In this document: piece after piece, positions 44,072 to 63,217 of the stretch
Numbering within the stretch: position 1 is the first letter of the stretch
Layout of the letters: the number at the start of each line of letters is the position of its first letter
NCBI GenBank assembly: GCA_002282445.1
Contig: NCJK01000003.1
Span: 162,889-226,888 of the forward strand
DNA: 64,000 bases
DNA from: Burkholderiales bacterium 39-55-53
Lineage (GTDB): Bacteria > Pseudomonadota > Gammaproteobacteria > Burkholderiales > Burkholderiaceae_C
Direction of reading: 5' to 3'
The notes under the pieces: generated by a model
What the model was told of the DNA's origin: nothing
Databases searched by the model: none
The model's input: only the letters and a program-made list of their open reading frames with translations
Made by a program: the position numbers and the translations under genes

Positions 44072-45655
44072 TTAGGACTTCGTAAATTGATTTTTCATCG
44101 ACTTGCTGCTGCGTAACCAACCTTTGTTCAGCAAAGGGTTGGACTGCATGAAAGCATCGGCTTGAGATTTGGATTCAAAAGGGCCAGCCACCAAAATGTA
44201 ATAACGTTTGTTTGAATCTTTTTGGCGCGCACGCAGTATGCGAGTTTTGGCATAAACGGCGTTGCTGCGCTGAAAACTGCGCATGTCCTCCTGGGTATCC
44301 ATGGCCGCCAGCTGTACCACATAGGCGTTGGCTGGTAGTTGCTCAACCCATAACTCGTCTGAGCTTGGTTCAGCTTTGGCTTCAGTTTTAGCTTCTTTCA
44401 TCGCTTGCGCTTTGTCGGCTTTGAGTTCTTTTTCTGTCTTTTTCTTGACAGGCTCTGCGGCAGATGCCGTCAGCACGGGCTCGGAAGCTACAGGCACAGC
44501 CACTGAGGCTGCGGCACTGGCAGCAGAGGCCACCTCTTGCGCTTCGCTGGCGACGCGCGCAGCTTCAGCCGCCATTGAAGCCGCTAGCTCAGCTGCCGCC
44601 AAAGCTTCGGCACTGGCTGCAGAGGCAGCCGCTGCCGCACTGGCTGCTTCTTCGGGGGCAGGAACAGCAGGCGTACCGCGCAGCAAATACTTTTTAAATG
44701 TCTCAACCTCTTGCAGCACCGCTTCTTTGTACATCAAGCCAAACGCACTCATGGAAACCAGCAAAACCAACAGCACCCATCCTGCACGCGACTTGCGCGG
44801 TTGACGTTTGAACAGCTCCGTATCGTCAGCGGCGCCCGCTTGCAAACTTGGCTCCCGCGATGTATCGACTGCTGGTGCTGCCAATGGCGATGCAGGCACG
44901 GATGGCGCGACCGCAGCCGCAGACATAGCCGCTGCGGATTGCGTTGAATCGGGCAATGGCGGCACAAAAGCCGGCAAAACTTCTGGCTCTAGCTTGGGCT
45001 CATCCTTTTTGCCAAAGCCTGGCACACGCCAAGCCGTTTTAGCGGGGATATTGAGCAGCTTAGACACGGGCACCACCTCGTCACTCAAGGTGGGAGGATC
45101 TGCATTGAACGTAGGTTCGATTTGGACCGGCTCAGGGTCTGGCGTTGTGGCCACCCAATCGGTCAATTTTTGTTTGGCCTCGCCATGCTCAGTTTCAACT
45201 TCCCACTTCACGAGGTTTTTGCCAAAAGCGTCAACCTTGCTTTGGTAGTTACCTGCACTGTTGATGAGCAAAATCACACTGATATTGCCCGCAGGAAAGC
45301 CGTTGACCAAACGCGCCAACAGCTGCAACTCAAAGTCTTGCATCAAGATCGAGTCACGGAACAACAAGAAACGACGAGGCGCGTGTTTTTTGTCTTTTTC
45401 CAGCGCTTGGTCTAGCGTGATTTCAGACAGGATTTCGTTGAATTTCTGAACCAAGCGCTCAGAGTTGGTAGAGCTGCACCATTCGATGTGGCTCTCACCT
45501 TTGGAACGTAAGCGTTCTTCAAACAAAATGCCGTAGTAATCGAGCACCATGTCATGGTCGCTCATCACGGCGAGATTGATACTGCCTTCCGTCAATGACT
45601 TCAGGAGTATTTCAAATCGCAACCGGTCACCGGGGCTTTGGTAGATGTCTGTCAT
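44072..45655 (-). CDS. DamX-like protein with SPOR domain and degenerate ATPase-like head
   Basis: A 527-residue protein. Residues 1-180 look like a Rossmann/AAA-like domain without a Walker A (GDRLRFEILLKSLTEGSINLAV; RRFLLFRDSILMQDFELQLL). After a Pro-rich linker comes one membrane helix (about 293-312), an Ala-rich periplasmic rod, then a C-terminal SPOR domain (NAYVVQLAAMDTQEDMRSFQ to RYYILVAGPFESKSQADAF) that binds denuded septal or polar peptidoglycan. The gene starts 21 bases after flhB, so it is part of the flagellar export operon. This is unusual for a SPOR protein. Confidence 0.8.
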   Translation of the reverse strand: MTDIYQSPGDRLRFEILLKSLTEGSINLAVMSDHDMVLDYYGILFEERLRSKGESHIEWCSSTNSERLVQKFNEILSEITLDQALEKDKKHAPRRFLLFRDSILMQDFELQLLARLVNGFPAGNISVILLINSAGNYQSKVDAFGKNLVKWEVETEHGEAKQKLTDWVATTPDPEPVQIEPTFNADPPTLSDEVVPVSKLLNIPAKTAWRVPGFGKKDEPKLEPEVLPAFVPPLPDSTQSAAAMSAAAVAPSVPASPLAAPAVDTSREPSLQAGAADDTELFKRQPRKSRAGWVLLVLLVSMSAFGLMYKEAVLQEVETFKKYLLRGTPAVPAPEEAASAAAAASAASAEALAAAELAASMAAEAARVASEAQEVASAASAAASVAVPVASEPVLTASAAEPVKKKTEKELKADKAQAMKEAKTEAKAEPSSDELWVEQLPANAYVVQLAAMDTQEDMRSFQRSNAVYAKTRILRARQKDSNKRYYILVAGPFESKSQADAFMQSNPLLNKGWLRSSKSMKNQFTKS

Positions 45656-49047: not shown

Positions 49048-49788
49048 ATGAGCTTGATACGCGATCTGATCCATGCGGGTGGCACGGGCGGCCTGAATTG
49101 GCATGTGCATGCACACTATTCACGTGAACGCTGGCAACCAACGGTGCAACTGATCGAACAGTTCTTTGCACAAGTCGATCCCAAATCCGACCACCTGCTG
49201 CTGATTGGCGGCAGCGCGGGTTGGATGATGCCGCCCAGCTGGCTGGCCCGCTTCAAACGCATCGATGCGTATGACATTGATCCTTTGGCGCATTGGTTGT
49301 TTAACTGGCGTCATGGCCGTCGCCTCAAAGCGCAAGGTATACAGGTTGAGCACCACCGACTTGATGCCTTAGAAGTTTTGCCTGAAATCCTCAGCACACA
49401 TGCAGCCGCTTGCATTTGGTTTGACAACGTGCTGGGACAGCACCGTTACCGTGTGCGGGATGAAGCGCGTGTGGAGCGAGAACTGGCCCAACTCAAAACC
49501 ACACTCAAGGGCCGCCACTGGGGCAGCTTGCACGATGTGTGGTCGGGGCCCACCGATGGTCGCTTGCTACCTGCGGGTTTGAATGTTTGGAGTCATCACG
49601 TCACAGCCAAGCAAGGGCTCGATGCCGTGTTTTCACAAAAATTGTTAGCCAGCGTGGGCGCCAAAGATGTGTGGCAAGACCACCTGACAGGACATGTATT
49701 TGCACCTACCACCCCCACGACCTGGATGCCCTGGGCTTTCAAGGCCAATTACTGGCATTGGCTGCAAGCAGGTTGGGTCAGTGCTTGA
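49048..49788 (+). CDS. Conserved hypothetical protein with Rossmann-like features
   Basis: A 246-residue soluble protein. The segment SDHLLLIGGSAGWMMPPSWL followed by RIDAYDIDPLAHWLF resembles the first two strands of an S-adenosylmethionine-dependent methyltransferase fold (glycine loop and acidic strand 2). A later FDNVLGQ fits a motif of that fold. It is the only rightward gene in the flagellar block and occupies the place where fliK-fliL-fliM-fliN normally stand. It overlaps the fliJ 3' end by 11 bases. Substrate unknown. Confidence 0.65.
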   Translation: MSLIRDLIHAGGTGGLNWHVHAHYSRERWQPTVQLIEQFFAQVDPKSDHLLLIGGSAGWMMPPSWLARFKRIDAYDIDPLAHWLFNWRHGRRLKAQGIQVEHHRLDALEVLPEILSTHAAACIWFDNVLGQHRYRVRDEARVERELAQLKTTLKGRHWGSLHDVWSGPTDGRLLPAGLNVWSHHVTAKQGLDAVFSQKLLASVGAKDVWQDHLTGHVFAPTTPTTWMPWAFKANYWHWLQAGWVSA

Positions 49789-50218
49789 GGTTGTAGAGCG
49801 TGACGCCCGCAGCATCCATCTCTTTTTGCTCGCGCTTGCGATGGAAATCGCGCACAGCTTTGAGGTCTTGCTCGACCAAGGTTTCCATTTGAATGCGTTT
49901 TTGCTCAGCGGCTTTGAGCGCTAAACGCTTGACTTCGACCGCGTGCTGCGCCTCCATCAAGTCAATGCCCACGCGGCTGATGAGCGACTGCAACTGCTGC
50001 ATGAAACCACGAAAGTTCAAAGTTTCAGACATGCTGTGTGGGCGGCTTTCAGCTTCTTTGCTGCGCGCCACATAGTCGGTATAAAGCAAGTTCATGCGCT
50101 CTCGGCTTTGCTCCAAGTGGGTCACACGGTCACGTGCTTTTTTGAGCTCTGCGAAGGCTTCATCGCATTTCTCTTTAGCTTTTTTGGCCAGCACAGGCCA
50201 TGCGGCACGGGGCTTCAT
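49778..50218 (-). CDS. fliJ: Flagellar export chaperone/ATPase stalk FliJ
   Basis: A 146-residue, almost entirely helical coiled-coil protein in the usual FliJ position after fliI. Length matches E. coli FliJ (147). The Lys/Arg-rich heptads (LKKARDRVTHLEQSRERM, HAVEVKRLALKAAEQKR) fit the antiparallel coiled coil that inserts into the FliI ring. Its ATG overlaps the fliI stop (ATGA). Confidence 0.88.
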   Translation of the reverse strand: MKPRAAWPVLAKKAKEKCDEAFAELKKARDRVTHLEQSRERMNLLYTDYVARSKEAESRPHSMSETLNFRGFMQQLQSLISRVGIDLMEAQHAVEVKRLALKAAEQKRIQMETLVEQDLKAVRDFHRKREQKEMDAAGVTLYNLKH

Positions 50219-51534
50219 GACAGCATGTGGCTCAGTTTGCTACGCGTCATGGCGTAGTCTTCGCCCTTGTCCATGTCTTGGCGCAAGAAGTCAATCATCT
50301 GTTCGCGGATGCGAATGGCTTCGTCAAGCTCAGGGTTAGAGCCCGACTCATACGCACCCACTTGCACCAAGTCAGCATTTTGTTGGTACACCGACCACAA
50401 ACGACGTAACTTGTTGGACTGCTTCAACTCGTCTGAGTTGACCAAGGTTTGCATCACTCGCGAAATCGAACCGTTCAAATCAATCGCGGGGTAATGCGCT
50501 TGGTCAGCCAAGCGGCGTGACAACATGACTTGGCCATCGAGCGACGCACGCGCGATGTCCACAATGGGGTCGTTACCGTCATCACCCTCGGCGAGCACGG
50601 TGTAAATGGAAGTGATGGAGCCATGGCCATGACGGCCCACACCGCCACGCTCAATGAGGTTAGGCAGCAAGGCAAACACCGAAGGTGGATAGCCTTTGGC
50701 TGTGGGCGGCTCGCCAATGGCCAAGCCAATTTCGCGCTGCGCATGGGCCACACGGGTCAAGCTGTCGCACAACATCAAGACGTTTTTGCCTTGGTCGCGG
50801 AAGTATTCTGCAATCACATGCGTCATGTGCGTGGCCTTGAGGCGCAGCACAGGCGACACGTTAGCGGGCGCAGCAATGACCACGGATTTGGCCAAGCCTT
50901 CTTCGCCTAAGGATTCATGGATGAAGGCCTGCACTTCGCGGCCACGTTCGCCAATCAGGCCAATCACCACGATGTCGGCTTTGGTAAAGCGTGTGAGCAT
51001 GCCCAACAGCACACTCTTACCCACGCCCGAACCAGCGACCAAACCAATGCGTTGGCCACGGCCGATGGTGAGTGCGCCATTGATGGCTTTGACACCCACA
51101 TCCAAAATTTGGTCAATCGGGCCGCGCTCCATGGGGTTGAGCGGGCAGCCCAAAAGGCTGAGCTGGTCGGGCAAATGGGGCATGGGCTTGCCATCAATCG
51201 GCACACCACGGCCATCGATCACGCGACCCAGCAACTCATTGCCCAAACGCACTTGCCCTGAATTGCTCATCACACGCACCGTGTCGCCGGGGCCAACGCC
51301 CACAGGGTCGGTGAACGGCATGAGGTACAAGGTTTTGTCATTGAAGCCCACCACCTCGGCTTCGACGCGGTGGCCTTCTTTGCCAATCACTTCGCAGCAG
51401 GCGCCCAAGGGGGCCATGATGCCGCGCGTCTCCAAAGTCAATCCGACCAAGCGCACCAAAGTGCCACTGCGTTGTGGCTCTGGCGTGCGCAGCTTGGGTA
51501 AGCTGGCCTGAACTTCTTTGGAAAAATCGAGCAT
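50215..51534 (-). CDS. fliI: Flagellum-specific ATP synthase FliI
   Basis: A 439-residue export ATPase homologous to the F1 beta subunit. Walker A is GLVAGSGVGKSVLLGML, Walker B is NVLMLCDSLTRVA, and GYPPSVFALLPNLIERGG is characteristic of the type III group. Length is normal. It follows the truncated FliF-like gene by three bases. Confidence 0.97.
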   Translation of the reverse strand: MLDFSKEVQASLPKLRTPEPQRSGTLVRLVGLTLETRGIMAPLGACCEVIGKEGHRVEAEVVGFNDKTLYLMPFTDPVGVGPGDTVRVMSNSGQVRLGNELLGRVIDGRGVPIDGKPMPHLPDQLSLLGCPLNPMERGPIDQILDVGVKAINGALTIGRGQRIGLVAGSGVGKSVLLGMLTRFTKADIVVIGLIGERGREVQAFIHESLGEEGLAKSVVIAAPANVSPVLRLKATHMTHVIAEYFRDQGKNVLMLCDSLTRVAHAQREIGLAIGEPPTAKGYPPSVFALLPNLIERGGVGRHGHGSITSIYTVLAEGDDGNDPIVDIARASLDGQVMLSRRLADQAHYPAIDLNGSISRVMQTLVNSDELKQSNKLRRLWSVYQQNADLVQVGAYESGSNPELDEAIRIREQMIDFLRQDMDKGEDYAMTRSKLSHMLS

Positions 51535-51537
51535 CCC

Positions 51538-52224
51538 TTATTTACCCACTTGAATCATGCTGCGGATGACAGAAGCCACGCGTGTTTGGTCTGCTTGCAC
51601 CACCATACGCACCACACCCACTTTGTCTTCGTAGCTGTTGGCTGTGTTGAGCAGCTCTGGCGGAATGGTTGGCTTCTTGGCTTTTTGTTGCTCTTTGCGA
51701 ATGCGCTCTTTGATTTCAGCCAAAGACTCACCCTCGCGAATTTCAATTTCACCTTCTGCCAAAGCCTCGCCCTCTTCCTCTGCTGGTGCATCTTCAGTTG
51801 TGGCCTGTGCGCTGGTGTCTTCTGCCGTTTCTTCTGCCACGACCTCTTCCACTGGTGCTTCCACCGTTTCTTCCATGGCAACTTCTTCCACTGGCGTTTC
51901 TTCAGCTTCTGGTTCTGGCACCACTTCGGCTACAGGTTCTGGTACTTCTTCTGGCTCTGGCTCGACCACAGGTTTTGGTTTTGGCTTCTCTGGCTTTTCC
52001 AGCAGCATCATTTGGTATTTGATTTTTTCGGCGCGCTGGGCTTCGAACAATTCGGCTTTGCGCATCATCTCGCGCTCCACCGCATCAATGGCAGCCTTTT
52101 GCATGTCGCTGTTCGATGCGGCTTGCCCCACCAAATTCAACACAAACGGGCGCACGATGGTGACGATCACCACCATGAAAATCAAACCCATCAACAGGGT
52201 GTTGATGACGTCAGGAATGAACAT
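51538..52224 (-). CDS. Truncated FliF-like protein: one membrane helix plus FliG-binding tail
   Basis: A 228-residue protein with two regions matching the C-terminal part of FliF from this same window. The membrane segment (GLIFMVVIVTIVRPFVLNL) parallels FliF GGIFLLILLTVVRPMVRRL. The C-terminus (PELLNTANSYEDKVGVVRMV and RVASVIRSMIQ) parallels FliF ADLLNTANSYDDKVALIRMI and RVAGVLKSLIE, the known FliG-binding motif. A Pro/Glu/Val-rich acidic linker of about 90 residues joins them. All periplasmic ring-building domains are missing. It overlaps fliH by 14 bases and has GGAGGACGGCG before its ATG. I know of no described gene of this kind; it may add extra FliG anchors or act as a competitor. Confidence 0.8.
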   Translation of the reverse strand: MFIPDVINTLLMGLIFMVVIVTIVRPFVLNLVGQAASNSDMQKAAIDAVEREMMRKAELFEAQRAEKIKYQMMLLEKPEKPKPKPVVEPEPEEVPEPVAEVVPEPEAEETPVEEVAMEETVEAPVEEVVAEETAEDTSAQATTEDAPAEEEGEALAEGEIEIREGESLAEIKERIRKEQQKAKKPTIPPELLNTANSYEDKVGVVRMVVQADQTRVASVIRSMIQVGK

Positions 52225-53656
52225 CGCCGTCCTCCGCTTCTTCTTGTTGAACTTCTAAGATTCGTTGCGCCAATGGCGATTTTTCGCGCCATGCATCCAC
52301 ATCAATCAGCAAGGCCTTGGCCAAGCCTTCGAGGCGGTGATCGACCAAGTCTTCCACCACCGTGTCGTTGGCAAACACGCGCACGCTGCCGCGTTGCATC
52401 TCGTGCACGGCTTCCAAGCGCATGCCCTTGATGAAATCACCCCCTTGCGCTTGCAAGAGCTCTTTGTCTTCTGGGTTGAGTTCTAGCACCACTGCGCCAT
52501 GTACAGGATGGTCTAGCTCATCCAAACACCGTTGGACCAAACGCTCAATGCCTTTGCTCGATGTTTGCAACTCGCCCAACACCACTTGCTCTGCCATGTG
52601 CATCGCCAAGCGCTTGAGGGGCTCAAAAAATTTCTTAGGGTCGGCAATCAGCTCACCCAGTTCTTTGGCGACATTTTCAAACACCACGCGTTGCGCGGCC
52701 ATTTCGTCGGCCACTTCGGCGCGTGCTTTGGCTTCGCCTTCGGCCAAGCCTTGTTCTTTTCCGGCTTCGAGGCCTTCGGTTTTACCTTGCTCGATACCTT
52801 GCGCTTTGCCCTGTTCCAAACCTTGTACCAAGCCTTGTTCTAAGCCCTCGGCTAGACCTTCGGCTTTGCCTTGCTCCAAGCCTTCTTCTCTGCCTTTGGC
52901 CAGAGCGGCATCGGTGGCTTCGCGCACAGCGGCCTCTAGTGCAGCAGCTGCCTCTTCACGCGCTTGTGCCAAGCCTTTGGCAAACTGCTCAGCTTCGCGT
53001 TGCGCCACCTCGTCTGGCGAAATGCCGCCGACGACTGCAGGCAACTCAGGCTCTGCGGGTTCAACAACAACCGGTGCTGGCTCTGGCTCCGCCAAAGCTT
53101 GCGCAACAGGCGTTTCAGCCTCTTCTTTTGGTATCTCGCGTGCTTGCACCTCAACCACATCAGTGGCATCAGGCACATCGGGATGGATCACGATGAGGTC
53201 GGCCACTTTGTCGTCAGAGGTGATGGGGCTGACCACCAAGCGCTCCGCCATTTCGGCTTGCGCCAAGGCGCGTTTTAAAACTGATGGATCGACATTCACA
53301 CGCAACTTTGATTTACGTGTGGCCGCATAGGCATCGGTCACAAATGGCAAATGCTCGTTGGTTTCGGTACCCGCCACAACGGCAGGCTTTTCTTCACCAA
53401 ACGATTCATTGCGGTACTCGCCCTCCAACAGCGCCAGCGAAGCTTTGGCTTGTTGACTCAGTGGCTGCTTGGTGGGTTGGTAATGCGCAGCAGAGAATCC
53501 GCTGGCTTTGGCTGGATAGCCTAAGTCAGCAAAGCTCTCTGGCTCATCACTCGTCCAGCTGGTCGTGGCGTACCCACGGCTACTCAGCTTATTCGCGATG
53601 CCAGCATTGGGCTGCCACGGTGTGGCTGCCCGAGCGGAGTGGGGTTGATTAAACAA
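52211..53656 (-). CDS. fliH: Flagellar assembly protein FliH, enlarged
   Basis: A 481-residue protein, about twice the E. coli length (235). The C-terminal half is FliH/VATPase E-like (ELGELIADPKKFFEPLKRLA, LQTSSKGIERLVQRCLDEL). Before it lies an exceptional run of about 50 residues in which Gly recurs every fourth residue (EGLEQGKAEGLAEGLEQGLV), the GxxxG helix repeat of FliH in an extended form. The N-terminal 200 residues are not recognisable. The TTG start at 53656 overlaps fliG by eight bases and has no strong ribosome site, so the true start could lie downstream. Confidence 0.85.
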   Translation of the reverse strand: MFNQPHSARAATPWQPNAGIANKLSSRGYATTSWTSDEPESFADLGYPAKASGFSAAHYQPTKQPLSQQAKASLALLEGEYRNESFGEEKPAVVAGTETNEHLPFVTDAYAATRKSKLRVNVDPSVLKRALAQAEMAERLVVSPITSDDKVADLIVIHPDVPDATDVVEVQAREIPKEEAETPVAQALAEPEPAPVVVEPAEPELPAVVGGISPDEVAQREAEQFAKGLAQAREEAAAALEAAVREATDAALAKGREEGLEQGKAEGLAEGLEQGLVQGLEQGKAQGIEQGKTEGLEAGKEQGLAEGEAKARAEVADEMAAQRVVFENVAKELGELIADPKKFFEPLKRLAMHMAEQVVLGELQTSSKGIERLVQRCLDELDHPVHGAVVLELNPEDKELLQAQGGDFIKGMRLEAVHEMQRGSVRVFANDTVVEDLVDHRLEGLAKALLIDVDAWREKSPLAQRILEVQQEEAEDGDVHS

Positions 53657-54683
53657 AGTCTGCGCCGCCCAAGATCAATTCGCCCGAATCGGACAACTTA
53701 CGCGCTTTACGCATGATTTGCTTTTGCGCGTCTTCCACGTCGGCCATGCGTTGTGGGCCTTTGGCTTCCATGTCGTCGCGAAACATACCGCGCGCACGTT
53801 CGGACATGTTGTCGAAGAAACGCGCTTGGCACTCTTCGCTGGCGTTTTTCAAAGCCATCATCAACAAGTCTGGCTCCACCGCACGCATGAGCACCTGAAT
53901 ACCCTTGTTGTCCACGCTGACCAAGTTCTCGAAGGTGAACATGTTGTCTTGGATCTTGAGCATCAAGTCGGGGTCGATCTCGTTCAAACCGCTCATGATG
54001 CTGTTTTCCAGCGCAGTCTTGGTCAAGTTCATGATCTTGGCTGCGGCTTGAATGCCACCAAAGCTAGAGGACTGAGCAGACGCGTTCTTGGAGAACTGTT
54101 GCTTCATGATGGCTTCGAGTTCTGCCATGGCAGAAGGCTGAACGGTGTCCAAACTAGCCACGCGCTGAATCACTTCGGGGCGCACATCAGCTGGCAGATA
54201 GTTGAGCACGTCAGCAGCCACTTCGCTCTCAAGCAGTGACAAGATGATGGCCACCACTTGTGGGTGTTCGCCACGAATCATGTCGGCAATGCCACGTGCA
54301 TCCATCCAAGTGAGGATGTCCAAACCTTTGGTGCCTTGTCCCGGCATGATTCGGCCCAAGACAGAAGCCGCTTTGTCGTCGCCCAATGCCAAGCGCATGA
54401 CGCGCTCCACATAGTCGGCGCCACCGATGCTCACGTTGTTTTGTTTCTTCAAGTGGTCCACAAACTCATCGAGAACGTAGTTCACCGCGTCTTGCGAAAA
54501 GTTAGCCACTTGCACCATGGCCGCACCCAAGGCTTGAACCTCCTTGGGGCTTAGGTATTTGATGATTTCTGCTGCTTGCTCTTCGCCCAGCAACAGCATC
54601 AACACGGCAGCACGTTGGGTGCTGGTAATGCCTGCGAGCTCGGCTCGCAGCTTGTCGGTCATCACAATGGTGTCGTCAGCCAT
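53649..54683 (-). CDS. fliG: Flagellar motor switch protein FliG
   Basis: A 344-residue rotor protein linking the MS-ring to FliM and to the stator. The N-terminal domain (TSTQRAAVLMLLLGEEQAAEI) binds the FliF tail. The middle and C-terminal domains carry the EHPQ motif (RGEHPQVVAIILS) and charged residues for torque generation (RFFDNMSERARGMFRDDMEAKGP). GAGGAA precedes the ATG. Confidence 0.96.
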   Translation of the reverse strand: MADDTIVMTDKLRAELAGITSTQRAAVLMLLLGEEQAAEIIKYLSPKEVQALGAAMVQVANFSQDAVNYVLDEFVDHLKKQNNVSIGGADYVERVMRLALGDDKAASVLGRIMPGQGTKGLDILTWMDARGIADMIRGEHPQVVAIILSLLESEVAADVLNYLPADVRPEVIQRVASLDTVQPSAMAELEAIMKQQFSKNASAQSSSFGGIQAAAKIMNLTKTALENSIMSGLNEIDPDLMLKIQDNMFTFENLVSVDNKGIQVLMRAVEPDLLMMALKNASEECQARFFDNMSERARGMFRDDMEAKGPQRMADVEDAQKQIMRKARKLSDSGELILGGADFV

Positions 54684-54704: not shown

Positions 54705-56885
54705 TTATTTTTCGATCAAGCTCTTCAAGACACCGGCCACGCGGGTGGAGTCTTCAGCCATGATCATGCGAATCAACGCCACTTTATCGTCATACGAATT
54801 CGCTGTGTTGAGCAAATCAGCAGAAATTGACTGCTTCTTAGGCTTCATGCTCGCCATGCGGGCCTTGACCTCTTCCAGCGTTTCGCCTTCTTCAATTTCA
54901 ATGTCAGCGGCTTCAGCTTCTGCCGTCGCGGCTTGCACAGCAGCGGCTCGGGCAGCTTCGGCATCAGCGGCAGCTTTTTCGGCCATTTCAGCAGCCAATC
55001 GGGCTTGCTCAGCGGCCAAGGCTTCTTCACGCAGACGGGCTTCTTCACGCAAACGGGCTTCTTCGGCAGCCTTGGCTTCGGCAGCCAAACGGGCTTGCTC
55101 AGCAGCGTAGGTGGCTTCTTGGGCCAAGCGGGCAGACTCTTGGGCTGCGAGCTGGGCTTCTTCAGAAATACGCAGCATCTCGCCGTCGTGTGTCTTCTTG
55201 GCATAGGCCGCGGCGGCTTGTGCGGCGGCATTCTCTGCTGTGGCCACATCAATCGCCATCTGGGCCTGTGTGGTGGCTGCATCAGCAGCTGCCGCAGCCA
55301 AGGCTTTGGGATCGATCTCGGGGGCCAGCAAGCGGCGGACCATCGGACGAACCACAGTCAAGAGGATGAGCAAGAAGATGCCACCCACCACACCGGCGTT
55401 CACCATCACTTGGTAGTTCTCATCGCGCCACCATGGGATCACGGTTGGATCGTACTGAGGTTCAAACTTGGTACCCACCACAGTGACCACGTCACCACGG
55501 TCGTTGTTGAAGCCCACTGCGCCCTTGACCAATTGGTTCAAGCGTTCGATTTCTTCAGGTGTGTAGGGAATCGACGTTGGAGTTGAACCGTCGGCGTTCT
55601 TTTCGACTTTGGCACCAGCGGGAATCGGGCGTTCATTGATCAACACACCCACACCAATCTTGGTGATCGTGCCCATCGCACCTTTGGTGTGACGCACAGC
55701 GCGGTCGAGTTCGTAGTTTTTGGTGCTACGAGCTGTCACTTGCACGCCTTTTTCGCTCACGCCCTTCAAGGGGTCGGCGTTGGTTTGCGTGGTGGCTTGT
55801 GGGTTGGTCGGTGCTGGGGGCGTGTTGGACAACGCGCCAGGAATACCAATCGCATCACGGAAGGTGTTGCGGTCTTCTACAAACAATTCAGAACGTGTCT
55901 TAGGACCTTTGTCTTGACCATCAAATTCTTCGTTGGTGACTTCGGTTTGTGTGAAGTCCAAGCTCATGCTCACCTGAGCCGTCACGTTGGTCTCGCCCAC
56001 GATGGGTGCGAGCAACTGGATCAAGCGGGTGCGATAGAGGTCTTCCATCTGTTGCTTGTGGGTGAGTTGTTGTGCGGTCAAGCCCAAAGGCGCTTCCGTC
56101 AACATGTCGTTCATCAAGCTACCAAAGTTGTCCACCACCGACACGTTTTCAGGTGCGAGGTAAGGCACGCTAGATGCCACCAGTTGAATGATGGCTTGCA
56201 CGTTGGCAGACGAGATGGTGCGGCCAGGCAAACGGGTGATCACCACAGAAGCCTTGGTCGGTGCGCGGTCGCGCACAAACACGCTTTGCTTAGGTGCGGC
56301 CAAATGGACGCGGGCTGATTTGATACCGCCGATTTGCACAATACTGCGTGCCAGCTCTTGCTCCATGGCGTTGTTGTAGCGCACTTGCTCCATGAACTGG
56401 CTGGTCGTCATGGCGGGCATGTCTTTGAGGTTGTCCATGCCAGAGGCTTCTGTGCGTGGCAAACCTTTAGAAGCCAACAACATGCGGGCTTCTTGGAAAC
56501 GAGATGTAGGCACAGAAATTTGGCCGGTGTTGACATCCACCTCAGGCTTGAACTCAGCAGCCTTCAAAGCTTCAATGGCTTGTTGTTTGTCAGCGTCGCT
56601 GAGCATCAACACCAAAGGTCGGTAAGGGGTCGGCTTCATCGAGGTGAAGAACACCGCCACTGACATCAGCAGCATGAAAATCACGACAAAAGGTAAAGCC
56701 TTGCGAACGCTGGGCTGACGCAAAACGTCCATCACCACCGCGCCTGGGCCTTCTTTGGTGTTGATCCAAGCAGGCATATTGCCCGAGCTGGATGCAGAAC
56801 CATTCGCATTGGATGCGCCGGTGGTCTCTACACCGTTGGCTACGGGCATGCCCACAGCGTTCATGTTTAAGGTATCGGTTGCCAT
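54705..56885 (-). CDS. fliF: Flagellar MS-ring protein FliF with extended cytoplasmic tail
   Basis: A 726-residue protein against about 550 in E. coli. Membrane helix 1 is near residues 60-80, then the ring-building domains (PLVLMLSDADKQQAIEAL, ARSIVQIGGIKSARVHLAAP, DFTQTEVTNEEFD), membrane helix 2 near residues 480-500, and the FliG-binding tail at the end. The excess is about 180 residues of Ala/Glu/Arg coiled coil between helix 2 and the tail (repeats such as EEARLREEARLREEALAAE). It is the second gene after the sigma-54 activator and fliE. Confidence 0.95.
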   Translation of the reverse strand: MATDTLNMNAVGMPVANGVETTGASNANGSASSSGNMPAWINTKEGPGAVVMDVLRQPSVRKALPFVVIFMLLMSVAVFFTSMKPTPYRPLVLMLSDADKQQAIEALKAAEFKPEVDVNTGQISVPTSRFQEARMLLASKGLPRTEASGMDNLKDMPAMTTSQFMEQVRYNNAMEQELARSIVQIGGIKSARVHLAAPKQSVFVRDRAPTKASVVITRLPGRTISSANVQAIIQLVASSVPYLAPENVSVVDNFGSLMNDMLTEAPLGLTAQQLTHKQQMEDLYRTRLIQLLAPIVGETNVTAQVSMSLDFTQTEVTNEEFDGQDKGPKTRSELFVEDRNTFRDAIGIPGALSNTPPAPTNPQATTQTNADPLKGVSEKGVQVTARSTKNYELDRAVRHTKGAMGTITKIGVGVLINERPIPAGAKVEKNADGSTPTSIPYTPEEIERLNQLVKGAVGFNNDRGDVVTVVGTKFEPQYDPTVIPWWRDENYQVMVNAGVVGGIFLLILLTVVRPMVRRLLAPEIDPKALAAAAADAATTQAQMAIDVATAENAAAQAAAAYAKKTHDGEMLRISEEAQLAAQESARLAQEATYAAEQARLAAEAKAAEEARLREEARLREEALAAEQARLAAEMAEKAAADAEAARAAAVQAATAEAEAADIEIEEGETLEEVKARMASMKPKKQSISADLLNTANSYDDKVALIRMIMAEDSTRVAGVLKSLIEK

Positions 56886-56905: not shown

Positions 56906-57250
56906 TCAAACTGGCATGTTCATGATTTCTTCGTACGCTTTCATCACTTTGTTGCGTACTTGCAAGGTGGCTTCAAAAGCCAGCGACGATTTCTGCATGC
57001 TCAGCACAACTTCGGTGAGCGGAACTTCTTCGCCACGGTCGTAGGCTTCTTGCATGCCGCGTGATTTGAGCTGCGTGTCGTTCACGCTGTCGAGTGCGTT
57101 TTGCACCGACTTGAAGAAATCTGGTTGACCTTGAACTTTGGCCGTGGCCGCATCGCCCGCTGGCGAATTGACGCCAGTGGCCTGCGTTTGGTGGGCACGC
57201 AGGGTTTCAATCATGGATTGAATGTTCGTGTGTGAAATGCGATCAATCAT
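56906..57250 (-). CDS. fliE: Flagellar hook-basal body protein FliE
   Basis: A 114-residue rod-junction protein. The C-terminal helices (EVVLSMQKSSLAFEATLQVR, then NKVMKAYEEIMNMPV) are the FliE signature. Length is close to the E. coli protein (104). Its ATG overlaps the stop of the sigma-54 activator gene (ATGA), so the regulator and the basal-body genes share one transcript. Confidence 0.95.
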   Translation of the reverse strand: MIDRISHTNIQSMIETLRAHQTQATGVNSPAGDAATAKVQGQPDFFKSVQNALDSVNDTQLKSRGMQEAYDRGEEVPLTEVVLSMQKSSLAFEATLQVRNKVMKAYEEIMNMPV

Positions 57251-58731
57251 GCTGAGGCTCCTTCATTCATGCCACGGGTACGCATTTGTGCCAGCTTGTA
57301 GCGCAAGGTGCGTGGGCTGATGCCCAACTTGGCAGCCGCTTCCATGCGACTGTCGGTACTTTGAATTGCAGCCATGATCACTTGCAGTTCGCTGGCCTTG
57401 ACCGCGCTGTCTAAGTTCACTGGCTCTTCGCGCATTTCCACTGGGGCAATGGGCGCTGCTGTGTAAGCCATGGGGTTGTAAGCCACAGGAGCGGCTGGCA
57501 TGGCGGGTGTCAATGGGGCTGCGACCACGGGGGCGGCAGCTGTAGGCTCTTGCGCCACAGGCAATGCAGCTTGAATTGCGGGCATGGCTTGCTCGTCCAT
57601 TTGGGCGTCGTCAAACATCAAATGTGCTGGGCTGATGGTGCGGCCACCGCTTAACACCACGGCGCGTTGCACCACGTTTTCGAGTTCGCGCACATTGCCT
57701 GGCCATGGGTAGCTTTGCAACAACACTTGGGCTTCTGGTGTGACCGTGAAAGGCACACCACCTTTGACATGACGAGCCAAGGACTGAGCCACCAAAGGAA
57801 CGATGTCGCCTGGACGGTCTTTCAAAGGCTGGATGCGCAAGCGGAAAGTGCTGATGCGGAAATACAAGTCTTCGCGGAATTCGCGTTGCTCGATGGCGAG
57901 CTTCAAATCTTTGTTGGTCGCCGCGATCACGCGGATGTCGAGGTCGATTGTGGCTTCGCCGCCCAAACGGTTGAGTTTTTTCTCTTGCAAGACGCGCAAC
58001 AACTTGGCTTGCAAGTTCATGGGCATCTCACCAATTTCGTCCAAGAAGATGGTGCCGCCGTGGGCTTGTTCAAACAAACCTTTGTGCTCTTTCAAAGCGC
58101 CGGTGAAAGCACCCTTCTCGTGACCGAACAACATGTCTTCGATCAAGTGCTCTGGCATGGCCGCGCAGTTGAGAGCCACAAATGGTGCCTTGGCGCGAGG
58201 TGAAGATTCGTGCAACACACGGGCCAACACTTCTTTACCAGCACCTGTGGGGCCGACCAACAAAGCGGTCACATCGGTTTGTGCCACGCGTTGGGCCAAG
58301 GCCAACAAATGCTGGCTGATGGGGTCCACAAACACGTAGCTCTTGGTTTTGAGTTCGGGGGCGTTCAAGCCTTTGACAGCGCCATGCCAAGCATCAGCAG
58401 ACCATTCGTCAGCCGACAACACATGCAAAGCACCCAAGCGCATCGCGTCCACTGCCACCTCCATGCGGCGGCGGTCGACGCGGCACAGCACGGGCACGGT
58501 GTGGCCGAGTTGGGCAATGAGGGTTTGAACTTCTTGAAGCAGCTCGGCGCTATCGCCCAAGCGAATGACCAGCACATGTGCACGGCGCAAAGCCAGCGTG
58601 AGGTCGCCCAAGGTAGAAACAGTTTCCAGACTGATACCTGCGGCATCCAGCTGGGCGCGATCTGCGGGGTCGATTGGACTGAAAGGGTCCAACCACACGG
58701 CATGAATTACGTTGACAGAAGAAGCATTCAC
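57247..58731 (-). CDS. Sigma-54-dependent flagellar transcriptional activator (FleQ/FlrC type)
   Basis: A 494-residue enhancer-binding protein. The N-terminal 120 residues resemble a receiver domain without an obvious phospho-acceptor Asp, like FleQ/FlrA. The AAA+ domain has Walker A VGPTGAGKEVLA, the sigma-54 contact loop GAFTGA, and Walker B GGTIFLDEIGEMP. A Pro/Ala linker leads to a Fis-type helix-turn-helix (EAAAKLGISPRTLRYKLAQM). GTG at 58731 is the best visible start. It should activate the sigma-54 promoters seen in this block, including one just upstream of itself. Confidence 0.93.
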   Translation of the reverse strand: MNASSVNVIHAVWLDPFSPIDPADRAQLDAAGISLETVSTLGDLTLALRRAHVLVIRLGDSAELLQEVQTLIAQLGHTVPVLCRVDRRRMEVAVDAMRLGALHVLSADEWSADAWHGAVKGLNAPELKTKSYVFVDPISQHLLALAQRVAQTDVTALLVGPTGAGKEVLARVLHESSPRAKAPFVALNCAAMPEHLIEDMLFGHEKGAFTGALKEHKGLFEQAHGGTIFLDEIGEMPMNLQAKLLRVLQEKKLNRLGGEATIDLDIRVIAATNKDLKLAIEQREFREDLYFRISTFRLRIQPLKDRPGDIVPLVAQSLARHVKGGVPFTVTPEAQVLLQSYPWPGNVRELENVVQRAVVLSGGRTISPAHLMFDDAQMDEQAMPAIQAALPVAQEPTAAAPVVAAPLTPAMPAAPVAYNPMAYTAAPIAPVEMREEPVNLDSAVKASELQVIMAAIQSTDSRMEAAAKLGISPRTLRYKLAQMRTRGMNEGASA

Positions 58732-59152: not shown

Positions 59153-62100
59153 TTAACCGCCCAAGAGTTTCATCACCGACTGCTGGCTGGTGTTGGCTTG
59201 CGCCAGCACAGCTGTGGCAGCTTGTTGCATGATTTGCGTCTTGGCCAACTCAGTAGAAGCCTGCGCGTAATCAGCATCTTCAATCGAGCTGCGTGAAGCA
59301 GACATGTTCATCGAAACGTTAGTCAAGTTGTTGATGACGTGGTCGAGTCGGTTCATTACCGCACCCATCGTGGCGCGTGTGGCGTTGACTTTGTCCATCG
59401 ACGTATCAAGCAAGTTCAGAACTTCTGTTGCTCCCTGACGGGTGTTGATGCGTACTCTGCGATCTTCTTCTTTCAGATCAACGTCACCGGTAATTTCACC
59501 AGTAATAGATCCGTTCTTACCAAAGTCAGCCAAGTCGATAGTAATTACTTGATTCGCGCTCGATCCAACCTGGAATGCCATGCGCCCCACGCGTGGAGGA
59601 TCCATATCCTCGCTAGCGCGACCACCAAAACTTCCCTCCGCAAATCCCAGTGTAGAGAAATTACTCAATGCACCGAAGCCATCTGTACCCGCACGAATTT
59701 GAATAGGCTTGCCATCAATATTCATCAGATTTGGCTTTAAACCATCAGGGCCTGGCATGGCCGGCAAGATAGGAGCTGATGAAGTAAGCTTTACATTGCT
59801 ATAAAGAGTTTTGATGTCCATCACACTCAAGGCTGCGTTTGAGTTACCCAATACGACTCGCTTGTATTCTGCGTTCAAATTGACAGCAGATACATCATTA
59901 GAACCAGACGAGTTGCTTGACACCGTACTTAAGTCTAATGTCACACCACTTGGAGCAGCGCCATCAAGAACGGAGGCACCACGCAAATCAAATCCTGAAC
60001 CAGCCACAGTTGACTCAATCAGCACATATTCATCGCCATCCGTATACGAAACTTGGAGGTTCTTGAGAGCGTTATTTGAGTCACCGATTTGTAACCCGAT
60101 AGCTTCATAAAGAGCTGCTGCAGATGCTGCTGCATCAGCGCCAGTGACAGCTTCGATCTCAACGCCATTTATTACAACTTTTGCAACATCACCTGCATTG
60201 GCTGTACCGCCAACTTTGATCTTAGAAATTTGCGCTACGCTTCCGCCTTTGTCGAGACCAAAACTAGCTGCAGATAGGTTTTCAACGCTGGAGTCGAACC
60301 ATGTTGAAAGATTACGACCGTCTGTTGTCAAAGTCACGCCTCTGCCGTTGTTAATGGCCGTGACGCCGTGTGTTCCGGTTCGCTGATTGATTGCGGTGAC
60401 TACTTTGTCACGTCGGGCGTCTTCGGGCTCGCCTTTCGTGAAATCCACCTCAATATCAACACCGTTGACATATAAATGCTGTTTGCCACTCTCAGGCAAA
60501 GTTGTGTAAGTGCTTCCACCCTCCGACACTACAGGATTTGCCTCGGCCTTGACGCCTGTCAAGTTTGTGCTTGCATTGATTGCAGCTGCTAGGGCAATTC
60601 CACTTGAAGCGGCATTGCTGGACGAAACCCCTGTGTAAGATAGCTTGTCATCTTTGACAGTAGTAGGGCGGATTTTGATACCGTTAATTTCCAGATCGTC
60701 GGCACCCAAAGCCTTAAATTGAGCTGCCTGGTTCGCGACATTTTCTTCAGCAACTGCAGCAACCGAGGCGTCAGAACTCGGAACCGCACTCATGGTGAAA
60801 GGTGTCCCTGGATTTTTTGCGGTAACCAACAATTCACCAGCATTACGACCTGCGCTTACAGTCACACCTAAGGTTGCGTAATTCGCAACATCACCCGTAA
60901 TTTCTGCAATCAGCAAATCACGTAAGTTTTGATTTCCGTCCTCAGTAGCGGTAGCAGTAAATGGCACACCATTGATCGTGACGGTGATTTCGTCGTCCGT
61001 CACTGCCCCACTCAAATTAAGGCTGTACACCTGCGCAACTGCGGCTCCTACCGCCTCACGGGCTTTCGTATTCAGCACAGCCTCATTTTTAGAGAAATTA
61101 CCCTCAACAAGTCCGACACGCGAAATATCCATATTGGAATCTGAAGACAAAACCACAGGGGCTTGAATTTTTGACTCCAACGAAATGGTAGAGCTCTGCA
61201 CACCCTCTCGCATACCGACTCGTTGCCCGAACATGATCGCACTTGTAGAAGAATCTGGTTCGAAGCGAACTTCAACGTTGCGACCGTCTGCGGCAACAAG
61301 CGTGATACCTTTGTGGTCAGATCCAGTGTCAATTGCACGAACACCAGTTTTATCACTGATCATGTTGATCGCACGTGCCACATTTTCTCGTGTTGCCTGG
61401 GCGTTGTTATAGATGGTTGTAATTTGAGCCGAGGCGTATCCGTTGATGAACACAACACCACCAACCACAGGGCCACCAGTCATTGCCTGACCGTTCACAA
61501 TATTTTCATTAACCTTTGCAAACACACCCGTGCCTGGCAACTTGGTTAAATACTCTGAAGTGGTATTGACAACACTGCCAACACCAGTTTGGCCAGGTAC
61601 CACCTCAATCTTTGATACGTTACCCTCTTTAACAGGGAACTCGACGGAAATACTTGCAGAGCCAGTAGCGTAAACAATTTTTCGTCCGCTACTCTCATCA
61701 AACAACGGGCTGCTCTTCATGGCAGCTGCAATTTTTGCGGCGGCTAAAGTTGGCGTGCTGTCATCACTGGTCAGTACAACACTGACCCCACCAACAGTGA
61801 TAGTGCCGGGACCAGGCGTGCCACTGAAAGTAATAGATTGCGATTCGCCTTGTGTAATACCTTGGTCAACCGCCTTGCGGTTAATCGCCGCTGCTTTCGC
61901 AATAGCACTACCAGAGGCATTGTTTCGGGGCGAAAGCACATCGTCTTCGGAATTGGACGGACCAATATTGATTCCGTTGATGTACAGGTCACCATCACGC
62001 ATGCGAGGAACACTTCCCTCGACGCCAATACTCAAAGACAAATCGCGTCCTGCAGTTGAAACGTCAAGGCCCGTACCCTCTGAGTTTTTCATGACATACG

Positions 62101-63172
62101 TCAAGTCTGCAGAGATAACGGAGCTATTCTTTCCGCTGTCTTTCAAGATTTCAATAGTTGCCGGATTGTCATCAGACAGTGTCACTGCAAGTTCGACTTC
62201 ACTGCCATCTTCATTGACAAACAAGGCTGTAAGGTCATCACCTACAACAGCCGTGCTTGGAACTGTGATGCGCAACTCACCACTCTGAAGAAACTTTCCA
62301 TTAGAGGCGAATGACTCCACGGCTTGTGTTGCAGCATACTGTGCAACCACCGGATCATCGGCAAGTATGTTTGCCCCACTTACGCTTACTGAAACATCTG
62401 TGACATCCCCCTCAGACGGGCTGAAGTTAAGTTGGACAGCGTAATCGCCCACACCTGAACCATCCACCTTCTCCGCGGTAATGCCGCGCAGAGCAAAATA
62501 GTCAGAATTGTTCAGCGTCGTCACCATTTCATCGACAGCCTCTGAAAGAGTCATCGTTGAATTTATTTCTGACTTGATGCCGGCAATCGTCACAAAACCA
62601 TCTTCTGGAGTTCCAGAAAAATTAATTGTCTGGATCTCACCCGCATCGTCACCCGTAATTGTTCGTGTGGTTGTTGGATCAATAAAGACCGATCCAAATT
62701 GGTTCTCTGAAGTAACCTTGTAGACAGGCATCTCACCAACTTGCTCACCAGCTTTACCATTCAACACCGGAAAACCGTTCCACTCAGTGTTGTCTGCAAT
62801 TTGAACAATTTGTTGTTTCAGCTGTTGAAACTCTAAGTCCAAATAGCTTCGGTCGGCATTGTTGTTGGTATCGTTCACTGCCTGCACAGCCAACTCACGC
62901 ATGCGTTGCATCATGTCCGTGATTTCGTTGGTCGCACCTTCAGCGGTCTGGATCAGGTTAATAGCGTCGCCCGCATTGCGCACCGCCTGATTCAAGCTTC
63001 GAATCTGATGCGTCATGCGCGTTGCAATCGACAAGCCAGCCGCATCATCTCGTGCCGAGTTGATTCTTTTGCCTGTCGACAATTGCTGCATTGCTTTGCT
63101 TTGCTCGAGACCTGATGACTTCAGAGCCATCTGCGAAAACAATGCTTTAACGTTGGTATTGATAACTGCCAT
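59153..63172 (-). CDS. fliC: Giant flagellin
   Basis: A 1339-residue flagellin, against about 500 in E. coli and 270-400 in many polar flagellates. Residues 1-140 are standard D0/D1 (MAVINTNVKALFSQMAL, LSTGKRINSARDDAAGLSIA). The last 90 residues are the matching C-terminal D1/D0 (NRLDHVINNLTNVSMNMSAS to QQSVMKLLGG). About 1,100 residues between them form a beta-rich outer region with several Flagellin_IN-like repeats (for example VFINGYASAQI, LEINGIKIRPTT, LYVNGVDIEVD, VVINGVEIEAV, each followed by an A-A-I-N type helix). No HExxH protease motif is present. AGGAG precedes ATG 63172. Expression is probably sigma-54 dependent. Confidence 0.95.
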   Translation of the reverse strand: MAVINTNVKALFSQMALKSSGLEQSKAMQQLSTGKRINSARDDAAGLSIATRMTHQIRSLNQAVRNAGDAINLIQTAEGATNEITDMMQRMRELAVQAVNDTNNNADRSYLDLEFQQLKQQIVQIADNTEWNGFPVLNGKAGEQVGEMPVYKVTSENQFGSVFIDPTTTRTITGDDAGEIQTINFSGTPEDGFVTIAGIKSEINSTMTLSEAVDEMVTTLNNSDYFALRGITAEKVDGSGVGDYAVQLNFSPSEGDVTDVSVSVSGANILADDPVVAQYAATQAVESFASNGKFLQSGELRITVPSTAVVGDDLTALFVNEDGSEVELAVTLSDDNPATIEILKDSGKNSSVISADLTYVMKNSEGTGLDVSTAGRDLSLSIGVEGSVPRMRDGDLYINGINIGPSNSEDDVLSPRNNASGSAIAKAAAINRKAVDQGITQGESQSITFSGTPGPGTITVGGVSVVLTSDDSTPTLAAAKIAAAMKSSPLFDESSGRKIVYATGSASISVEFPVKEGNVSKIEVVPGQTGVGSVVNTTSEYLTKLPGTGVFAKVNENIVNGQAMTGGPVVGGVVFINGYASAQITTIYNNAQATRENVARAINMISDKTGVRAIDTGSDHKGITLVAADGRNVEVRFEPDSSTSAIMFGQRVGMREGVQSSTISLESKIQAPVVLSSDSNMDISRVGLVEGNFSKNEAVLNTKAREAVGAAVAQVYSLNLSGAVTDDEITVTINGVPFTATATEDGNQNLRDLLIAEITGDVANYATLGVTVSAGRNAGELLVTAKNPGTPFTMSAVPSSDASVAAVAEENVANQAAQFKALGADDLEINGIKIRPTTVKDDKLSYTGVSSSNAASSGIALAAAINASTNLTGVKAEANPVVSEGGSTYTTLPESGKQHLYVNGVDIEVDFTKGEPEDARRDKVVTAINQRTGTHGVTAINNGRGVTLTTDGRNLSTWFDSSVENLSAASFGLDKGGSVAQISKIKVGGTANAGDVAKVVINGVEIEAVTGADAAASAAALYEAIGLQIGDSNNALKNLQVSYTDGDEYVLIESTVAGSGFDLRGASVLDGAAPSGVTLDLSTVSSNSSGSNDVSAVNLNAEYKRVVLGNSNAALSVMDIKTLYSNVKLTSSAPILPAMPGPDGLKPNLMNIDGKPIQIRAGTDGFGALSNFSTLGFAEGSFGGRASEDMDPPRVGRMAFQVGSSANQVITIDLADFGKNGSITGEITGDVDLKEEDRRVRINTRQGATEVLNLLDTSMDKVNATRATMGAVMNRLDHVINNLTNVSMNMSASRSSIEDADYAQASTELAKTQIMQQAATAVLAQANTSQQSVMKLLGG

Positions 63173-63217
63173 TTTTTTTCTCCTGACCTTCTTGGTCAAT
63201 CAAACTTGCCACTGATT

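Follow-up and report, generated by a model that had tools for sequence, protein, structure and literature searches.

In the flagellar motor, torque from FliG reaches the rod through the joint that connects MS ring and C-ring, and how subunit numbers are matched across it is unsettled. In the Salmonella C-ring, residues 514-560 of FliF are reported to wrap FliG D1, thereby linking both rings (PMC11087270). According to a review, the co-folding of FliG_N with the FliF tail ensures matching subunit numbers (PMC7355467); a cryo-EM study of later date puts forward 33 FliF to 34 FliG and a ratio that need not be 1:1 (PMC11087270). A FliF-FliG deletion fusion without the joint of FliF tail and FliG is described as forming a smaller C-ring (PMC6445934, PMC7355467). 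Here we describe a short gene, mini-FliF, that encodes a membrane helix and a C-terminal tail of FliF without its ring domains. The parts of the open-access literature on flagellar FliF and FliG that were available to us contain no description of such a gene.

FlgV of Helicobacter is probably the closest functional analogue of mini-FliF. It is reported to interact with FliF, to build a ring level with FliG_N where the MS ring meets the C-ring, and to be required for full motility (PMC10655999). The ring, which lies in the plane of FliG_N and FliF_C, is 21-fold in H. pylori, where the C-ring is 39-fold, and its authors propose that FlgV stabilises the junction or helps in MS-ring building, among other roles (PMC10655999). 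Like mini-FliF, FlgV is a small membrane protein of the flagellar cluster with a cytoplasmic part. It has 104-118 aa in Helicobacter and Campylobacter, two transmembrane segments, a GFFxG motif and a gene between flhG and fliA (PMC10655999). However, the available text describes no FliF-derived tail in FlgV (PMC10655999), whereas mini-FliF has one transmembrane segment and a FliF tail. By eye, mini-FliF shows one hydrophobic stretch and no GFF, its model has a single long N-terminal helix, and its gene occupies the fliH-fliI site in 39 of 41 loci rather than the flhG-fliA site.

Two other systems share parts of this architecture. The Chlamydia FliF paralogue has fewer ring domains and is tied to FliG, as we infer for mini-FliF, but the accessible description has it keeping two ring-building motifs and being fused to a FliG domain (PMC4768692). 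Mini-FliF has no ring motif and is encoded by a gene of its own, in addition to one for a full FliF. SwrB of Bacillus subtilis is described as a single-pass membrane accessory with a genetic link to FliG and, by its authors' inference, to FliF; it furthers the maturation of basal bodies, and an allele of FliG bypasses it (PMC4526659). SwrB activates the export apparatus, and only its described architecture places it beside mini-FliF (PMC4526659). Our own searches also returned, in g576, a genus of the same phylum, two frames of 238 and 229 aa (L139, 4591-5304, and L140, 4874-5560, minus strand); they lie directly before fliG and end in a FliF-like tail. By eye, these have two membrane helices (TM1 is kept) and a short periplasmic part, unlike mini-FliF. 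In the ~10 kb retrieved there was no second FliF-like frame, and by eye the g576 frame would be a strongly reduced or split FliF.

Homology of mini-FliF to FliF

The window, the whole stretch of 64,000 nucleotides analysed here from Burkholderiales bacterium 39-55-53, contains a flagellar cluster in the order fliE-fliF-fliG-fliH-[mini-FliF]-fliI-fliJ, with the following features.

51538-52224, minus strand: mini-FliF gene, 228 aa, ATG start; FliF TM2, linker and FliF C-tail, no ring domains
52129-52209, minus strand: mini-FliF membrane helix, residues 6-32; aligned to FliF TM2, in AlphaFold2 helix 3-75
51754-51966, minus strand: acidic proline-rich linker of mini-FliF, residues 87-157; predicted disordered (pLDDT < 50), poorly conserved
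51541-51765, minus strand: FliF-like C-tail of mini-FliF, residues 154-228; from segment alignments and tail profile against solved FliF tails
52231-52235, minus strand: Shine-Dalgarno-like GGAGG inside fliH, upstream of the mini-FliF ATG
54705-56885, minus strand: fliF, 726 aa; complete MS-ring protein that carries both PF01514 and PF08345
54711-54929, minus strand: FliF C-tail, counterpart of the mini-FliF tail by segment alignment
55326-55406, minus strand: FliF TM2, counterpart of the mini-FliF membrane helix by segment alignment
53649-54683, minus strand: fliG, 344 aa, putative partner of mini-FliF; sole FliG_N-bearing frame of the genome
52211-53656, minus strand: fliH, 481 aa, PF02108; 14 bp overlap with mini-FliF
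50215-51534, minus strand: fliI, starting 3 bp past the mini-FliF stop

Mini-FliF is homologous to FliF. Searched against its whole genome, it gave two matches, itself and FliF (E 8.3e-17, 36% identity over residues 6-225). Its last 75 residues aligned to FliF with a score of 177 against a shuffle mean of 35.9 (z 27.6, reached by 0 of 1000 shuffles). The first 40 residues scored 60 against 28.1 (z 7.5, 0 of 1000), aligned on TM2 ending in VRP, which is residues 24-26 of mini-FliF. Residues 41-153 showed no similarity to FliF beyond composition (z -1.6; 980 of 1000 shuffles reached the score). The same holds across the 31 genomes with a trimmed mini-FliF and a complete FliF: the best match of the tail was the FliF C-terminal end in all 31 (z >= 12.6), and that of the N-terminal block was FliF TM2 in 30 by script (z >= 4.5). 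In the thirty-first, L057, the block aligns at the same place (499-539), where the script's TM2 finder failed.

Two hallmarks of FliF are thus found in mini-FliF, TM2 followed by VRP and a C-terminal tail of the FliG-binding type. The ring domains are not: PF01514 (YscJ_FliF ring domain) was absent from mini-FliF in Pfam and from the families of 39 members at E 0.01, and neither PF08345 (YscJ_FliF_C) nor TIGR00206 was present, while the FliF of the window has both Pfam domains. The two segment z-scores and these absences uphold the architecture of the original prediction, a FliF TM2 and FliF tail without ring domains. The shared tail, which had been put at 40 residues, is indeed homologous to the FliF C-terminus but extends over ~72. 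TIGR04526 was considered as the family of mini-FliF and rejected: its match (E 9e-4) reaches 18.3 bits against a cut-off of 150 and covers residues 69-199, mostly acidic linker.

A profile of 13 tails, made from four mini-FliF, four FliF of the same subtype and five conventional FliF, matched the C-termini of solved FliF chains (8z5s_AA 548-579, E 4.1e-5; 8z4d 564-594, E 3.4e-4; 6scn_A 534-556, E 0.0078), matches that, with nine of the 13 tails coming from FliF, do not rest on mini-FliF tails alone. We take 6scn to carry Salmonella numbering. The FliF chains were followed by four unrelated PDB chains (E 0.11-0.46). With mini-FliF alone as query, no FliF chain was found in the PDB and two chance matches were returned.

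Mini-FliF thus shares TM2, the C-terminal tail and an operon with FliF but has an acidic disordered linker of its own and neither TM1 nor ring domains, so it cannot build an MS ring by itself. The AlphaFold2 model of the single chain, made with 39 orthologues, is loose (mean pLDDT 67.9, pTM 0.26); it contains one helix (3-75), disorder at 87-157 and helices at 168-183, 189-194 and 198-227. Positions invariant across the 39 members, among them N8, P26, P188, E190, L191, D200, R215, V216, M223 and I224, lie in the membrane helix and the tail, with none in the linker. The positive charges after VRP and the very short N-terminus suggest that the protein is oriented N-out, C-in, as is FliF TM2. FliF is the sole PF01514 match in the 2.56 Mb genome, which also encodes two FliM/FliN-type frames (337 and 148 aa). 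As there is one FliF and one FliG, mini-FliF represents a second tail for a single FliG.

Conservation and distribution of mini-FliF

With a single-protein query, mini-FliF was found in 41 of the 49 genomes of its genus (its own genome included), Limnohabitans sp. Jir61 (L036) being among these relatives, and was not found in 32 genomes from other families of the order (41 of 81 matched overall). No FliG was detected in any of the eight genus genomes that gave no mini-FliF match, nor in a ninth, G423 (0 of 9). Six of these nine are less than 90% complete, and in G040, which is not one of the six, a frame of 299 aa carries a flagellin N-domain, so the cluster may be either lost or unassembled in these genomes. 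Within the sample, mini-FliF goes with the flagellum.

The gene is also coupled to the operon throughout the genus. Its placement between fliH and fliI, as claimed originally, is confirmed by the window coordinates and by 39 of the 41 genus loci, in which the three genes follow each other directly; contig ends cut the other two. In the same 39 loci the frame is open from the membrane helix to the end of the tail. Of these 39 loci, 22 have an 8-bp overlap with fliH, 11 one of 14 bp and six a longer one of 20-32 bp; in four of the six (L061, L066, L076 and L085) the start trimmed for the alignment gives 8 bp.

Mini-FliF is under purifying selection, weaker than that on FliF. Against nine near relatives, dN/dS was 0.14 for the membrane helix, 0.14 for the tail and 0.17 overall, with a linker value of 0.13 at nearly saturated synonymous sites (pS 0.73). 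In pairs with pS < 0.6, pN/pS in mini-FliF and FliF was 0.42 (159 pairs) vs 0.28 (95) for the tail, 0.58 (7) vs 0.22 (30) for the linker, and 0.55 (245) vs 0.50 (200) for the transmembrane segment. Identity among genus members falls to 26%.

A FastTree analysis of 40 minis, 30 genus FliF and 10 sister FliF, which left out six conventional FliF, the L057 and L117 FliF and rows identical to another, placed the minis in one group (support 0.994), beside groups of genus FliF (0.576) and sister FliF (0.94), and gave no order of splits. Rooting on conventional FliF placed the root among the minis themselves, at a support of 32 and on a very long branch. The single group of minis points to one duplication, no later than the base of the genus.

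Outside the genus, no mini-FliF was recovered from the genome samples searched at the level of family and class or among the matches listed for the phylum, and the restriction to the genus holds for those samples. A profile search of 397 family genomes (20 with a match) gave full-length short-frame matches only in the window's genus. The survey of Comamonadaceae genomes suggested with the original prediction, run here on genomes of the family, returned a genus-wide gene, and we reject a family-wide trait for the samples searched. Among 370 class genomes (profile; four with a match), mini-FliF was not found outside the genus, nor was it among the matches listed for a tail profile in 396 phylum genomes (151 with a match).

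Several short frames were rejected as mini-FliF. The 84-aa frame of G115 begins at the first bases of its contig and reads as the end of FliF, G510 is a FliF with unread bases, G1111 is a FliF cut by the contig start, and G1051 and G1064 are reduced FliF with two transmembrane segments. The FliF-FliG fusions suspected in G185, G129 and G175 (frames of 930-1048 aa) proved to be overlapping frames.

Window FliG shares 67-74% identity with its counterparts in g68, g110, g115 and g143, as against ~35-43% with the main FliG of other genera of the family, so the window's genus and these four form one flagellar subtype. Genome G424 of g107 joins the subtype by its FliF and FliG scores, and genome G155 of g107 does not. 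In the PDB, the window FliG scores higher with 8z4d (292 bits), presumably Vibrio, than with 8umd (230 bits), presumably Salmonella. It is possible, judging from these sequences, that the flagellar cluster of the subtype was replaced horizontally. In the eleven sister loci that have both genes (L114, L115 and L117-L125), fliH overlaps the fliI frame with nothing between; a further sister locus, L116, ends inside the cluster. Since the sister genera keep the cluster without mini-FliF, the subtype does not in general need it. FliF itself is longer in the genus, with open frames of 684-731 aa (n=31) vs 613-641 aa in the sister loci (n=11).

Possible role at the rotor and alternative explanations

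We favour an accessory rotor subunit over an assembly factor or decoy, and the latter over an export tether. Mini-FliF would be anchored in the membrane where the MS ring meets the C-ring and would present FliG with additional docking tails, a reading to which we give a probability of about 0.55. A partial fliF duplicate, made of TM2, an unrelated disordered linker and the FliG-docking tail, would have arisen no later than the base of the genus and would since have become a fixed part of its flagellum. The protein would sit in the inner membrane, N-terminus out and C-terminus in, beside or around the MS ring. Its tail would fold with the FliG N-domain in the manner of the FliF tail, so that FliG would gain further docking sites anchored in the membrane, on top of those that the FliF ring provides. 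More FliG might thereby be held, or FliG held more firmly, than by the FliF ring alone. Recruitment of further FliG, a stiffer or larger C-ring and competition in assembly, as put forward in the original prediction, are candidate roles. The presence of mini-FliF in the flagellar cluster of Limnohabitans, a group of bacteria from fresh water, suggests a differently built rotor. It would also add to the motor accessories a rotor part of a different kind from FlgV, and natural, genus-wide FliF tails without ring domains would make subunit matching testable in a living motor.

We infer binding to FliG from the homology of the tail to solved FliF tails and from distance correlations that are confounded by shared history. 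Given the FliI distances, the partial correlation of mini-FliF tail with FliG_N across the 31 genomes whose genes are complete was 0.32 in subclade A (n=12; permutation p 0.014) and 0.62 in subclade B (n=19; p 0.001), against -0.01 and 0.10 with the middle/C part of FliG. The known pair of FliF tail and FliG_N gave 0.30 in A and 0.80 in B. Thus, mini-FliF tail distances track FliG_N over the rest of FliG within both subclades, which is suggestive, although confounded by shared history. In the pooled 31 genomes, the tail correlated with FliJ at 0.53, FliG_N at 0.46, the ring part of FliF at 0.34 and the middle/C part of FliG at 0.29. FliJ correlated with FliG_N at 0.42 and with the mini-FliF tail at 0.44 in subclade B; the respective values in A were 0.03 and -0.13. 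The transmembrane block of mini-FliF also follows FliG_N (0.51 given FliI, 32 genomes), so the FliG_N signal is not special to the tail.

A stronger form of the accessory-subunit reading, which we offer tentatively, is that the rotor breaks the rule of one FliF to one FliG. The tails of ring-less anchors would then lie outside the FliF ring, and the C-ring would be wider, with more leverage and clearly more FliG than the MS ring has FliF, an arrangement that would suit giant-flagellin filaments.

Alternatively, mini-FliF may act outside the finished rotor, as an assembly factor or decoy: with its tail held at the membrane, it would capture FliG while the MS ring forms or even earlier. By feeding FliG to nascent FliF rings or withholding it from them, it would set when, where or how many flagella are made. 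We consider this rather unlikely, even though the same facts of membrane helix and tail fit it too, and the overlap with fliH and the closeness of fliI agree with early co-expression. The sigma-54 activator gene just upstream of the cluster (57247-58731) also speaks for it; such a gene stands beside the flagellar cluster in polar flagellates. SwrB, described as a single-pass membrane promoter of basal-body maturation, provides a precedent (PMC4526659). However, a decoy would presumably be lost easily, yet none of the sampled genus genomes was found to have FliG without mini-FliF.

It is improbable that mini-FliF instead tethers the export apparatus, attaching FliH/FliI to either the membrane or FliG so that the ATPase complex docks more readily under an enlarged C-ring. 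In favour of such a tether are the place of the gene between fliH and fliI, overlapping the first and near the second, and the long FliH of the genus (39 open frames of 328-675 with a median of 471, some of which contig ends may have shortened). However, the FliH frames of g143 are equally long (526, 537 and 540) and occur without mini-FliF, and the conserved end of mini-FliF matches the FliG-binding tail of FliF, for which we know of no FliH or FliI contact.

That mini-FliF is a decayed or functionless fliF duplicate, as its partial nature, highly variable linker and looser constraint than FliF might suggest and as the original prediction had named as its refutation, is contradicted by a genus-wide gene that is open in 39 of 41 loci (contig ends cut the other two), has a dN/dS of 0.13-0.17 in near relatives (~0.17 overall) and is kept down to 26% identity, and we regard it as highly improbable.

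Giant flagellin and other features of the window

Upstream of the fliE-J cluster, the window encodes a flagellin of 1348 aa (59153-63199, minus strand) with PF00669 and PF00700. Counted by eye, at least 25 of the 36 genus genomes with mini-FliF, at least two of 12 sister genomes and at least one of six conventional genomes contain flagellin N-domain frames of at least 1000 aa. Giant flagellins are reported to produce thick filaments in two marine species (PMC6248924), and because of such filaments a need for high torque is possible in this giant-flagellin genus. Neither giant flagellin nor FliH length was retained as a cause of mini-FliF: g143 has no mini-FliF, yet its FliH is long and two of its flagellin frames measure 1376 and 1612 aa.

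The FliH of the window (52211-53656, minus strand) contains many EG/QG repeats ahead of its PF02108 domain, and the sigma-54 activator gene at 57247-58731 lies directly upstream of the flagellar cluster. Just downstream of flhB, a 527-aa protein (44072-45655, minus strand) combines a C-terminal SPOR domain with an alanine/serine-rich middle. Between fliJ and fliO, on the opposite strand, lies a 246-aa open reading frame (49048-49788, plus strand) with no Pfam match at E 0.001, which by eye has the look of a methyltransferase or spermidine-synthase type protein.
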